A stretch of 22,545 bases of DNA from IMG/VR virus record IMGVR_UViG_3300023179_000549, positions 1-22,545 of that record; one strand, given 5' to 3'. The notes beneath the pieces are model-generated. The model did not search any database. It was not told the DNA's origin and worked only from the letters and a program-made list of their open reading frames with translations. This DNA is from a virus. Made by a program: the position numbers and the translations under genes. Of the stretch, positions 18,193 to 22,513 are shown piece by piece (within the stretch, counting starts at the first letter, position 1; each line of letters starts with the position of its first letter).

Positions 18193-18903
18193 ATGCTACC
18201 TAAAATATCTCATCCCACTTTTTCTCTTATTCTACCTTCAACAAAACAAGAGGTAATATTTAGACCTTTCTTGGTGAAAGAGGAGAAAATTTTGCTTATA
18301 TCCCAACAGGCTCAAGATCCAGCTGAAACAATTAGATCTATAAAACAAGTAGTTCAAAATTGCATTTTATCAGATGGAATTTTTGTAAATGATTTTGCAA
18401 CATTTGATTTAGAATATTTTTTTATTAAGTTAAGAAGTAAATCTGTAAATAATGTTGTTAAATTATCCTTCAAGGATAATGATGATAATAAAATATATGA
18501 CTTTGAAGTTGATTTGGAGGAAATTAAACTAGTAAATCAAAATAGTAATTATGATACTGAAATAGTAATAGATCAGGATACTAATTTAAAATTGAGATAT
18601 CCTAAAATAGATTTAATGGAACAAATGAAATCTATTGAAAATCCAAACGACTTTGCTTTCCTGCTATTAAAGCATTGTATGTATGAAATCAATCATAAAA
18701 ATCAAATCTTTAAAACATCAGAATATTCCGCAGAGCAAATTGATGATTTTGTTAATAATCTTGACTTAAAAACTTATCAAAAAATTCAAGATTTTTTTGA
18801 ATCAATCCCCAGACTAGAATATGTCATCAATTATACTAATAGTAATAATAAAGAAGTTAAAATAGTTCTTAATAATTTAAACGATTTTTTTACATTGGGC
18901 TGA
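18193..18903 (+). CDS. 26: gp26-like baseplate/tail assembly protein (0-frame product)
   Basis: A 236-residue protein of the T4 gp26 type. The N terminus LPKISHPTFSLILPSTKQEV then IFRPFLVKEEKILL is characteristic of this family (short peptide, beta strand, 'RPFLVKEEK'). The rest is helical with a final PRLEYVINYTNSNNKEVKIV segment before LNDFFTLG. GGAG about 7 nt before the ATG supports the start. T4 gp26 (208 residues) is listed as a baseplate hub component. The gene ends in a run of seven Ts followed by TGA, and the -1 frame continues open across the gap to the next gene. By position (between the tube initiator and putative tape-measure-type genes) and by this frameshift it looks like the short form of a tail assembly chaperone. 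Confidence 0.78.
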   Translation: MLPKISHPTFSLILPSTKQEVIFRPFLVKEEKILLISQQAQDPAETIRSIKQVVQNCILSDGIFVNDFATFDLEYFFIKLRSKSVNNVVKLSFKDNDDNKIYDFEVDLEEIKLVNQNSNYDTEIVIDQDTNLKLRYPKIDLMEQMKSIENPNDFAFLLLKHCMYEINHKNQIFKTSEYSAEQIDDFVNNLDLKTYQKIQDFFESIPRLEYVINYTNSNNKEVKIVLNNLNDFFTLG

Positions 18904-19076
18904 GCCACAATAGTCTTGCAAACTATTACACTCTAAATTTTAGTTTGGTTCAGCATCATAAATATTCTTTATCTGAAATTGAAAATATGTATCCATATGA
19001 AAGAGACATTTACGTAGATTTACTTAAAGACTATCTAGAAAAAGAACAAGAAAGACTACAAAAGAGAAATGGCTGA
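18193..19076 (+). CDS. Predicted -1 frameshift fusion of the gp26-like protein (GT-like, 294 residues)
   Basis: Reading gp26 to the second TTT of the T-run (18889-18891), slipping back one base and continuing at TAC 18891 gives 233 + 61 residues, ending at TGA 19074-19076 just past the next gene's ATG. The added tail (YIGLSHNSLANYYTLNFSLV, then QHHKYSLSEIENMYPYERDI, then YVDLLKDYLEKEQERLQ) looks like real protein: amphipathic, with an 'xYSLSEIExMxPxERxIYxxLLxxYLExE' pattern seen in tail assembly chaperone C termini. The -1 frame has no plausible independent start: its first ATG (18987) would give 29 codons. In T4, gene 51 follows gene 26; this tail may be the gp51 counterpart. Slippage itself is predicted, not shown. 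Confidence 0.75.
18885..18891 (+). promoter_or_regulatory. Slippery heptamer T_TTT_TTT for -1 frameshifting
   Basis: Seven consecutive Ts phased as GA(T TTT TTT) in the gp26 frame, so both tRNAs can re-pair perfectly after a -1 shift. It lies three codons before the 0-frame stop and inside the window where the -1 frame is open (from 18876). It fits the X_XXY_YYZ rule. Confidence 0.8.
18899..18954 (+). ncRNA. Stem-loop downstream of the slippery site (frameshift stimulator)
   Basis: GCTGAGCCA (18899-18907) can pair with TGGTTCAGC (18946-18954): nine pairs, one of them G.U. It begins 7 nt after the slippery heptamer, within the usual 5-9 nt spacing. Inside the loop AATAGT (18909-18914) pairs with ACTATT (18922-18927) around a 7-nt loop, giving a branched element. 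It also encloses the 0-frame TGA stop. Pairing is read by eye; no energy was computed. Confidence 0.6.
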
Positions 19077-20493
19077 TAATTTTTACGGCGCTGCTAAACA
19101 AAAATTTGTTGAAGGTCTTAAAGAAAAGATCTTTGGTCAAGGACTTTTAGGAAAATCTTTAAGAGCTGGGTATGAAGCTAAGTTTGGAACAAAAAAAGAA
19201 AAAAATAACGATAGTGAAAATATACAAAAGCAAAATGTATCTATTCTAAGAAGAATTAATATAGTAGTAACCAATATTTCTGATAATATTTACAATATAG
19301 CAGGAGTTTTAAATGCTCAGTTGACTTCTATGAAAGAAACTGAAGAAGAAATGAGACGTCAGGAATTAGAAAAATTAGTTGCTTCAGAAGAACAAAGTAT
19401 AGAATCTAAAACTTCAATAATACCTAAAACCAATCAAAAACCTAAAGCAGAAAAAAAAGATAATATTTTTAATAATCTTAACGAAAGTTTTTCATCATTT
19501 AAAAATAGTATCCTAAAATTTAGTAAAGGTCTATCTTCTCTTTTAAAGAGTAAAAAATTTCTAGCATTAGCAAGCGTAGCTGCTCTAGGAGGAGCTGCTG
19601 CTTATTCTACAGCTAAAGATAAGGAACCTGAAAAAAATATTTCCGAAGAAAGTATTAAACAAATTACATCTGTATCTTCACCAGACGTTACTTTACAAGT
19701 ACCAGAGTCTGGTAAGGAAAATCCTGCTACAACTAACCTACCTCAAAATAATTTAACTTTAGATAAAAAAACTTCTGATTTACAATCTGTAGCTACAAAA
19801 AAACCATCTTTAACACCAAACATAAAAGAAAATGATAATTTCTCAGCACCTACTATTAATAATGATTTAGAGTCTCAAGCAACAACTCCAAATCAATATT
19901 TTTCCAATGTAATAAAAATTAACGAACAAAAACAAGCCGAAAAAAATGCTACTATAAAAAAATTAAGGTTAGAAAATAAGTATGCAGGAGAGATTCCAGA
20001 AAATTCTCCTGAACTTTTAGAAATTGAAAAGAAATATCAAGAACCTTTGATTAATGCTATTTCTCCTAAAACTACCGAACTTCAAGCTAAACAGGTAAAA
20101 ATAAGTAAAGAAACCACAAATTCTTTTAAAAATTTTATTTTACAAAAAACTAATCTTTTAAATAATGTTCAAACTTCAGATGTTCAGCCAACAGATAAGC
20201 CTGAAATAGTAGTTCCTAATATTAGTGGTAGTTTTTCAATAGGATCTTCTACTCCTTCTTCCGATGTAAATAATGCTAAACAAATTCCTTCTTTTCCAAG
20301 CACAGGTAGTATGATAAACGAAACTTCTTCCAATGTAGAAGCTTTATCAGATAATTTTGCTCCTCCTGTTATTTCTAATGTTAATAATAGTTCTCTTAAC
20401 TCTATTGATACTTCAGAAAAACCAAGAATGAAAATTCCAACTCCCGTTGCTAATAGAGGTTCATTAGATAATTATTCATTCTTCCATGGATAA
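19069..20493 (+). CDS. Tail protein downstream of the chaperone; tape-measure or hub candidate
   Basis: A 474-residue protein I do not recognise by family. Visible parts: a basic helical N terminus; a module at about 57-101 (LRRINIVVTNISDNIYNIAG then NAQLTSMKETEEE) that recurs in the next gene; a single hydrophobic segment at about 162-181 (KKFLALASVAALGGAAAYST); then a long Ser/Asn/Pro/Lys-rich, probably disordered region with some helix (285-330). The start overlaps the -1 frame of the chaperone by 8 nt. The first gene after the chaperone is usually the tape measure; a helical protein with a membrane-active segment would fit. The low complexity of the second half argues for caution. A hub-bound accessory protein is the alternative. 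Confidence 0.6.
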   Translation: MADNFYGAAKQKFVEGLKEKIFGQGLLGKSLRAGYEAKFGTKKEKNNDSENIQKQNVSILRRINIVVTNISDNIYNIAGVLNAQLTSMKETEEEMRRQELEKLVASEEQSIESKTSIIPKTNQKPKAEKKDNIFNNLNESFSSFKNSILKFSKGLSSLLKSKKFLALASVAALGGAAAYSTAKDKEPEKNISEESIKQITSVSSPDVTLQVPESGKENPATTNLPQNNLTLDKKTSDLQSVATKKPSLTPNIKENDNFSAPTINNDLESQATTPNQYFSNVIKINEQKQAEKNATIKKLRLENKYAGEIPENSPELLEIEKKYQEPLINAISPKTTELQAKQVKISKETTNSFKNFILQKTNLLNNVQTSDVQPTDKPEIVVPNISGSFSIGSSTPSSDVNNAKQIPSFPSTGSMINETSSNVEALSDNFAPPVISNVNNSSLNSIDTSEKPRMKIPTPVANRGSLDNYSFFHG

Positions 20494-22513
20494 AAATTTA
20501 TCTAGAACTGCTGAGTTAGCAAATAAAATCTTAGCCAATAAACCCACTCTACAAATAAAAAAAGTAGACGATTTATTACAATCCCAACAGCAAGCAACTC
20601 TCTTACATTTAGAAACAGTATTTACAAATATTTCTGATAACATCTATAATATAGGTGGTATATTTAAAGCTCAGCTTACTTCTATGGAGGAAACCAAGCA
20701 AAATCTTAAGCAAAAATACCAAAATGAAAAATTACGTAACATTGAAAAAAAAATAGAAGAAAAAAAGAGATTTGATTCTAAAGAAATTGAAAATAAAATA
20801 ATTTTAGAAAAACTAGATTCTAAATTTAAATTTGAAGATATATTGAGTGATCTTGGAAAAATGGTAGAAGCTTCTTATTCTGGTTATGAATTATTTGATC
20901 ATGATAGAAAACAAAGGAATCAAAGAAAAGAAAATAAAAAATCTTCTCAAGTAAAAATTAAATCAAAATTTGATCCAGTTCTAAAACTTGGTGGAAAATT
21001 TGTCAAAAAAATTCCATTTATAGGTATTGTTCTAACAGTTGGAGAAGGTTTATATAAAACGCTAGAAGAAGACGAAGAAGTTACAGAGGCCAGGGGCGGA
21101 CCTTTAGCAAGTTTTGTTTACAATACAGCTGACGCATTAGTAACAAATATAACATTTGGTTTATTAGATATGAAAATTCTGGAAAACTCAAAAAAAGTAC
21201 TTTCAGAAAATGATGAAGGTAAAAAAATTCTTCAAAAAAATAAAGATGAAATAGTAGGAGCTTCATCGAAATTTGATTTTGTTTCGGGAAATGTTTCATC
21301 TGAAGAATCTATACCTCCAAAACTCCCAACATCTCCATTTATTAAAACCAGAAGTTTAAGTGCCCAAGAAACACAATCAACTTCTAAAGCAGAACTTTTA
21401 AAAAATAAAACTTTCGAAATAAAGACTGAGGAAAAATATGATTCTATAACTTTAGATGAACTAATTGGACAAAAAAACAAACAATATAGTAATAATATAG
21501 TAGTAACAGAATCTGGTGAAATTTTAGTTGATAGTCAGGGAGTTCCTGTAGGATCAAGTTCTTTAGATGAGCTGATAGAGCAAAGTCTTAAAAAAGAAAC
21601 AACTCAAGCACCTCCTTTTCCTGCTCCTACCCCTGCAAAACCTGCTGCTGCTCCTTCTCCTGTTTCCAAACCTACTGTTCCCACACCTGCAACACCTGCT
21701 GCTGCTCCCAGTGTAACTCCTTCAGCACCTATTCCAACACCACCTGCTCCTCCTCCTACACCTGTATCTAAACCTTCTCCAGGAGTACAAGGTATTTTAG
21801 GTGGAATAATTGAAACTATAAAACAAGCAGGAATAACATCGTATACTGCAATAAGTAACATTTTATCTCAAATAAAATCAGAAACTAATTTTAAGTTACA
21901 AAGTGAAAATTTAAATTATTCTTCAGCAGAACAAATACAAAGAGTTTTTGGTAAGAGGAGATTTCCAACTTTAGAAAGTGCTCAACCCTATGTAAAAAAT
22001 CCAATAGCTCTTGCTAATTACGCCTATAAAAACACGGATGGCAACTCTCAAGAAGGTGATGGATGGAAATACAGAGGTAGAGGTTGGATACAACACACTG
22101 GTAAAGCTCAATACGAGGCTATTTCAAAATACGCTGGTGTAGATCTTATAAGTAACCCTGATCTGTTAAATGATCCAATTATTGCTTCTAAAGCATTAAT
22201 GTGGTTCTTTTTTAACTATAAAAAACTTAAACCAAATGATTTAGAAGATATTTCCAAGGTCAATAGAGCAATTGGTTTTTCTGATCCAACAGGAAAAAAA
22301 GCAGAGTTAAGAGCACAAGAAGCTTTAGCTTTCCAAACAAAATTTGAATCGGGTCAAGAATTAAACGAAATTAGTGGCAATGTTAAAGCTGCAAAAAAAC
22401 AACCTCAAGGAACAACGGTTGTAAACGTAGACAATTCCATTAATTCAGCAGTCAAAATGCAAGGAGCCCCACAAGGGGGCTTTACTGTAGTACCTAAACC
22501 CGTAATGATCTAA
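20486..22513 (+). CDS. Tail-associated peptidoglycan hydrolase with GH19-type domain
   Basis: A 675-residue modular protein. Residues about 37-75 repeat the module of the preceding gene (LHLETVFTNISDNIYNIGGI, KAQLTSMEET), followed by a charged coiled-coil-like stretch to 115. A hydrophobic stretch lies at 172-190 (VKKIPFIGIVLTVGEGL). A Pro/Ala-rich linker spans 374-432, and a GH19 chitinase/lysozyme-like domain about 440-620: ILSQIKSETNFKLQSENLNY with E465 as likely general acid, KRRFPTLESAQPYVKNPIAL, then EGDGWKYRGRGWIQHTGKAQ (523-540, E523 a second acidic candidate) and SNPDLLNDP. It lacks a signal peptide and is embedded in tail genes, so a virion-borne wall-cutting enzyme used at infection is likelier than a lysis endolysin. 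It overlaps the upstream gene by 8 nt. Confidence 0.85.
   Translation: MDKNLSRTAELANKILANKPTLQIKKVDDLLQSQQQATLLHLETVFTNISDNIYNIGGIFKAQLTSMEETKQNLKQKYQNEKLRNIEKKIEEKKRFDSKEIENKIILEKLDSKFKFEDILSDLGKMVEASYSGYELFDHDRKQRNQRKENKKSSQVKIKSKFDPVLKLGGKFVKKIPFIGIVLTVGEGLYKTLEEDEEVTEARGGPLASFVYNTADALVTNITFGLLDMKILENSKKVLSENDEGKKILQKNKDEIVGASSKFDFVSGNVSSEESIPPKLPTSPFIKTRSLSAQETQSTSKAELLKNKTFEIKTEEKYDSITLDELIGQKNKQYSNNIVVTESGEILVDSQGVPVGSSSLDELIEQSLKKETTQAPPFPAPTPAKPAAAPSPVSKPTVPTPATPAAAPSVTPSAPIPTPPAPPPTPVSKPSPGVQGILGGIIETIKQAGITSYTAISNILSQIKSETNFKLQSENLNYSSAEQIQRVFGKRRFPTLESAQPYVKNPIALANYAYKNTDGNSQEGDGWKYRGRGWIQHTGKAQYEAISKYAGVDLISNPDLLNDPIIASKALMWFFFNYKKLKPNDLEDISKVNRAIGFSDPTGKKAELRAQEALAFQTKFESGQELNEISGNVKAAKKQPQGTTVVNVDNSINSAVKMQGAPQGGFTVVPKPVMI
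22463..22483 (+). terminator. GC-rich hairpin inside the end of the hydrolase gene (terminator-like)
   Basis: AGCCCC (22465-22470) pairs with GGGGCT (22476-22481) around a 5-nt loop, extendable by two G.U pairs to GGAGCCCC/GGGGCTTT. It is by far the most GC-rich helix in a very AT-rich region and lies about 30 bp before the stop. The following T-tract is short (TTTACTG), so termination would be weak at best. It could also be an RNA-stabilising or processing element, or simply coding for the Gly/Pro-rich end. Confidence 0.35.

Follow-up and report, generated by a model that had tools for sequence, protein, structure and literature searches.

A putative programmed −1 ribosomal frameshift joins gp26 to a gp51-like C-terminal tail in an uncultured T4-like phage

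The DNA analysed here is a 22,545-base IMG/VR virus record from an uncultured T4-like phage, and this whole stretch is referred to as the window. The end of its gp26 gene is best read as a programmed −1 ribosomal frameshift, a reading to which we assign a probability of about 0.93. A frameshift at this position had been claimed in a first-pass annotation made from the sequence alone, and the claim was supported by conservation of the signal in diverse relatives. According to this reading, gp26 would be a tail assembly chaperone in its short form, and a fraction of the ribosomes translating its end would slip back by one base at a T_TTT_TTT heptamer, the Phe tRNAs in the P-site and A-site pairing anew with TTT TTT in the −1 frame. 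A stem located 7 nt downstream would probably help by stalling the ribosome, and the slipped ribosomes would continue beyond the gp26 stop, extending the protein by 61 residues and yielding a fusion equivalent to T4 gp51. The short and long forms may act jointly in the folding or loading of the tape measure protein in baseplate-hub and tail assembly, like lambda G and GT. The occurrence of slippage and its efficiency, like the chaperone function, are what we infer here.

Organization of the gp26 locus

The features of the locus, with the evidence for each, are as follows:

18193–18903, plus strand: gp26 ORF, predicted short isoform, TAC-N (236 aa); Pfam PF12322, phrog_150, AlphaFold2 model
18885–18891, plus strand: slippery heptamer T_TTT_TTT, in phase with gp26; sequence and relatives
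18892–18898, plus strand: spacer, 7 nt; sequence
18899–18907, plus strand: putative stimulatory stem, 5′ arm GCTGAGCCA; fold and compensatory changes in a 40-sequence clade
18946–18954, plus strand: putative stimulatory stem, 3′ arm TGGTTCAGC; fold and pair count
18891–19076, plus strand: extension in the −1 frame (61 aa and a stop), a gp51-like C-terminal tail; phrog_634, C-terminus of phrog_150, codon-position variability
19069–20493, plus strand: next ORF, 474 aa, candidate part of the tape measure region; ORF and downstream place

The gp26 frame ends in AAC GAT TTT TTT ACA TTG GGC TGA, with the stop at 18901–18903. The −1 frame is open over 18891–19073 (61 codons), and its stop at 19074–19076 lies in an 8-nt overlap with the next ORF (ATG at 19069); the apparent intergenic gap, 18904–19068, is 165 bp. 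Together, gp26 and the −1 frame extension would provide the coding capacity for a long isoform (TAC-NC). The in-phase heptamer, the 7-nt spacer, the 9-bp stem and the 61-codon −1 frame described in the first-pass annotation were all found again on the sequence, and so was the lack of a usable start in the −1 frame, in which the first candidates, TTG at 18945 and ATG at 18987, both fall within the conserved peptide.

Conservation of the heptamer among relatives

Because the AT-rich window contains 42 T7 runs (53 expected by chance, and thus no excess), such a run is uninformative by itself. The signal nevertheless exceeds chance, because its phase and position are fixed: when homologous loci were compared, as the first-pass annotation had suggested, an in-phase T_TTT_TT[TCA] was found at the site in 138 of 141 non-redundant gp26 loci, the set being what remained after reduction to <85% gp26 identity. 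The heptamer reads TTTTTTT in 68 loci, TTTTTTC in 68 and TTTTTTA in 2. The first Phe codon at the site is TTT in all 138, and TTT makes up 70% of the Phe codons elsewhere in the same genes. The residue before the Phe-Phe pair varies (Asp, Asn, Ser, Ala or Arg), and its codon ends in T every time. As a control, the other Phe-Phe pairs in the same genes were scored, and 11 of 133 form a T_TTT_TTY heptamer. The chance estimate for the conserved heptamer is log10 P ~ −43 if the clusters are treated as independent; the clusters are related, so this figure overstates the surprise.

The three loci scored as exceptions were L006, L219 and Pseudomonas phage Cygsa01. Two were set aside, L006 having an intact heptamer with a gp26 frame broken upstream and L219 being a partial match only, which leaves Cygsa01 as the one true case without the heptamer among the three. 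The broken frame in L006 is probably an assembly or sequencing error. Viral scans using the gp26 proteins of XZ1 and HTVC008M as queries added few extra loci.

The −1 frame encodes a gp51-like peptide

Family searches with the −1 peptide gave phrog_634 (baseplate hub assembly catalyst, gp51; E = 2.5e-25) and the C-terminal part of phrog_150. Approximately 600 phage records match gp26 and approximately 600 match the tail; these are mostly phages of Synechococcus and Prochlorococcus and other cyanophages, with further matches in phages of Vibrio, Sinorhizobium, Pelagibacter and Methylophilales. In a redundant set in which contigs are repeated, all 156 loci with both matches have the tail in the −1 frame. 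The conservation of the −1 peptide, a further check suggested by the first-pass annotation, is protein-like over hundreds of phages. In the 40-locus clade of the window, mean variability at the three codon positions of the tail, read in the −1 frame, was 0.84/0.47/1.37 bits, and the corresponding values in the upstream gp26 frame were 1.04, 0.70 and 1.63; the −1 tail varies like coding sequence, in the pattern of the gp26 frame. Tail lengths, counted from the two slip-site Phe, cluster at 54–70 residues; the two shorter tails, those of L136 and L084, are truncated by contig ends. The 47 tails that were aligned share invariant Phe17, Pro35 and Glu37.

Comparison with the T4 proteins placed the tail within a longer product. 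T4 gp51 (249 aa) matches T4_baseplate over residues 1–201 and phrog_150 over 3–248, tail included, and the tail of the window aligns to T4 gp51 207–245 (E = 3e-5). T4 gp26 (208 aa) matches T4_baseplate over 1–206, and its end coincides with the end of the zero-frame product. The two T4 proteins align with each other at E = 2e-6. A direct BLASTP comparison of the window gp26 with T4 gp51 was not significant, and the link between these two proteins therefore rests on the families that they share. The first-pass annotation had equated T4 gp51 with the shifted tail; the homology stood, but T4 gp51 is the whole fusion, a gp26-like domain plus tail, rather than the tail alone. As judged by these alignments, the counterpart of the predicted unshifted product is T4 gp26, and that of the whole predicted shifted product is T4 gp51. 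Since T4 gp26 ends at the zero-frame end and T4 gp51 carries the tail, T4 places the short and the long form in two genes.

Annotation of the tail and start codons near the gp26 stop

The tail region is blank in the annotated records of S-CAM4, ACG-2014e and Aeh1. In the other annotated records that we opened it appears as a small gene with a varying start, and no joined gene across gp26 and the tail was found in the annotated regions of the records opened. Annotated gp51 starts range from an overlap with the gp26 stop to 75 bp beyond it; the start in C48C1, deep in the conserved peptide, is placed 75 bp beyond the end of the gp26 CDS. The scattered gp51 annotation likely represents a misannotated frameshift product.

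Most database annotations imply that the tail is translated as a small gp51 protein of its own, through coupled termination-reinitiation at the gp26 stop. An ATG that would serve such a start overlaps or just follows the stop in S-PM2, Cr30, phiM12, XZ1, BUCT608 and Cygsa01, the last of which has it without the heptamer, and an ATG lies within −30 to +24 of the stop in 48 of 138 loci; reinitiation could therefore add to slippage, or replace it, in those loci. However, 73 of the 138 loci, that of the window among them, have no ATG, GTG or TTG within this interval; the nearest candidates in the window are a TTG at +44 and an ATG at +86. In addition, the annotated starts are scattered, with some deep inside the conserved peptide, the ATG-bearing loci still keep the heptamer, and T4 has the tail as a fusion only. 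On this evidence we regard a separate gp51 protein as an improbable account of the tail.

The downstream stem is supported in the clade of the window

The stem formed by 18899–18907 and 18946–18954 has 9 bp, including one G-U pair. RNA folding, which had also been suggested as a check, yielded this stem with an inner hairpin, the downstream segment folding at −15.5 kcal/mol (z = −2.35). In the 40 window-clade loci that share one stop distance, 87.5% of cells were paired, compared with 21–36% in arm-slid controls, and compensatory changes were found in 6 of the 9 stem pairs (15 double-change cells versus 5.6 in shuffles). Support for the stem rests on this pair count for a named structure, because RNAalifold predicted no consensus structure on the same clade alignment. 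Across all lineages, the mean downstream folding z was −1.62 at the site compared with −0.40, −0.43 and −0.23 in three control windows. Strong downstream folding (z < −1.5) was seen in 51% of relatives, so that about half are without a strong hairpin; other clades, such as that of S-PM2, have differing hairpins, and some clades have none. Overall, the alignment supports the stem in the clade of the window, and its stimulatory role is putative.

These data also bear on transcriptional slippage, by which the polymerase would slip on the T-run and produce mixed mRNAs encoding the fusion. The same product would be expected, and the seven-T run in an AT-rich phage speaks for it, but half of the relatives have TTTTTTC and thus six T only, which is short for polymerase slippage. 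Moreover, the T-run begins at the third codon position in 138 of 138 loci, as slippage of codons, not of polymerase, would need, and a covarying stem stands at the right distance. We therefore consider transcriptional slippage very unlikely. That the T-run merely encodes a conserved Asp-Phe-Phe, with the −1 ORF a relic or a product of chance, would suit the near invariance of the site Phe in the protein, but it can practically be dismissed, given that the first Phe codon is TTT here without exception compared with 53 of 133 other Phe-Phe pairs in the same genes, and that the −1 peptide shows protein-like conservation over hundreds of phages.

Lineages that retain the tail without the heptamer

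The −1 tail is retained without a canonical heptamer in Cygsa01 (L180), Vibrio K475 (L223) and the Ackermannviridae. The first-pass annotation had named, as evidence that would count against a frameshift, relatives in which the peptide is a separate gene with its own start or in which the T-run is out of phase; contrary cases of this kind were encountered only among these heptamer-less outliers, some of which have a start overlapping the gp26 stop. The heptamer-less Ackermannviridae and their relatives are L221, L224 and L226–L230. Six Ackermannviridae-type loci have ATT TTC ATT TAA before the tail in common, and the codon overlapping the gp26 stop in loci of this type is ATG, ATT or ATA. In the Straboviridae, the family to which T4 also belongs, the frameshift layout is seen in Vibrio phage XZ1 and Aeromonas phage Aeh1.

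A tentative and rather doubtful extension of the frameshift reading is that a single homologous chaperone family produces its two isoforms by three or more routes, with the frameshift ancestral. The T_TTT_TTY frameshift would then be used by the Kyanoviridae, by Pelagibacter and Caulobacter phages and by the XZ1 and Aeh1 lineages of the Straboviridae, and separate full-length genes by T4 and RB43. In the Ackermannviridae the heptamer-less tail, which ATTTTCATTTAAT precedes, would depend on an undescribed recoding or initiation signal.

Identity of gp26 and the candidate tape measure neighbourhood

The identity assigned to gp26 in the first-pass annotation was borne out by matches to Pfam T4_baseplate (PF12322; E = 1.2e-46) and phrog_150 (baseplate hub; E = 8.5e-49). 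The AlphaFold2 model of gp26 had a pLDDT of 92.4, and its top match among 350,542 PDB chains was the HK97 tail assembly chaperone 2ob9; this fold match was weak and non-significant (E = 1.0, probability 0.60), and we take it as only a hint. Viral fold matches of the model were T4-type gp26 proteins. No PDB sequence relatives of gp26 were found, and a Foldseek search with the tail model returned nothing significant. A chaperone role for gp26 would follow from what is known of the family, and the record of Acinetobacter phage AM101 has gp26, gp28 and gp51 annotated as tape measure protein assembly chaperones.

In HTVC008M and Cr30 the annotated tape measure gene lies one gene further downstream, and the place in the window is comparable. 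The next ORF (19069–20493) had no family match of its own in Pfam and phrog searches. It shares a 63-residue stretch with ORF 20486–22513 at 43% identity (TNISDNIYNIxGxxxAQLTSMxET), and the latter ORF also has a chitinase-class (GH19) endolysin domain.

Comparison with known systems

If the −1 frameshift is accepted, the annotation of this locus would be corrected in approximately 600 phage records: what cyanophages and their relatives have as a small gp51 gene, its start placed arbitrarily, most likely represents the part of gp26 translated after the shift. The frameshift would also connect the "catalyst" gp51 of T4, long a puzzle, with chaperones made by frameshifting in other tails, and the natural variation among the conserved sites could be used to measure the importance of individual downstream structures.

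The proposed arrangement resembles lambda G/GT and P2 E/E′ in having a −1 shift near the end of the short tail gene that yields a C-terminally extended minor form, and may also share a place among the tail genes near the tape measure gene. The lambda slippery site is GGGAAAG, whereas the heptamer of the window is T_TTT_TTT. T4 is alike in that gp26 and gp51 both belong to PF12322, gp51 with the tail in frame and gp26 without it. T4, however, has two divergent genes, and RB43 two genes in tandem, where the window phage has a single frameshifting gene.

The first-pass annotation was unsure whether such a shift had been described in T4-like phages. Tail assembly chaperones of T4-like phages are the subject of Vladimirov, Gautam and Davidson (2022, Virology 566:9-15), as cited in PMC10885494 and PMC12846349. 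As those citing papers present the work, it is the source of the finding that the short gene of T4-like phages can carry poly-T frameshift signals (PMC12846349), and some T4-like phages have one short gene and one long fusion gene with no frameshifting (PRFect, PMC10885494). The window shares with these chaperones the predicted short and long form of one protein and the poly-T signal; as far as these accounts go, it differs in that the phage and its locus are unannotated, and T4 itself has separate genes 26 and 51. The kind of frameshifted chaperone is thus already known, and the window locus is an unannotated addition to it; what may be new is how many loci the conservation table covers, together with the covarying stem and the heptamer-less outliers. 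The chaperone of Pseudomonas phage Adele (Vandenendeviridae), as outlined in PMC12846349, likewise has a −1 frameshift, a conserved T-rich motif and a downstream ORF misannotated as separate, but its motif is GTTTTT and it belongs to another phage family.
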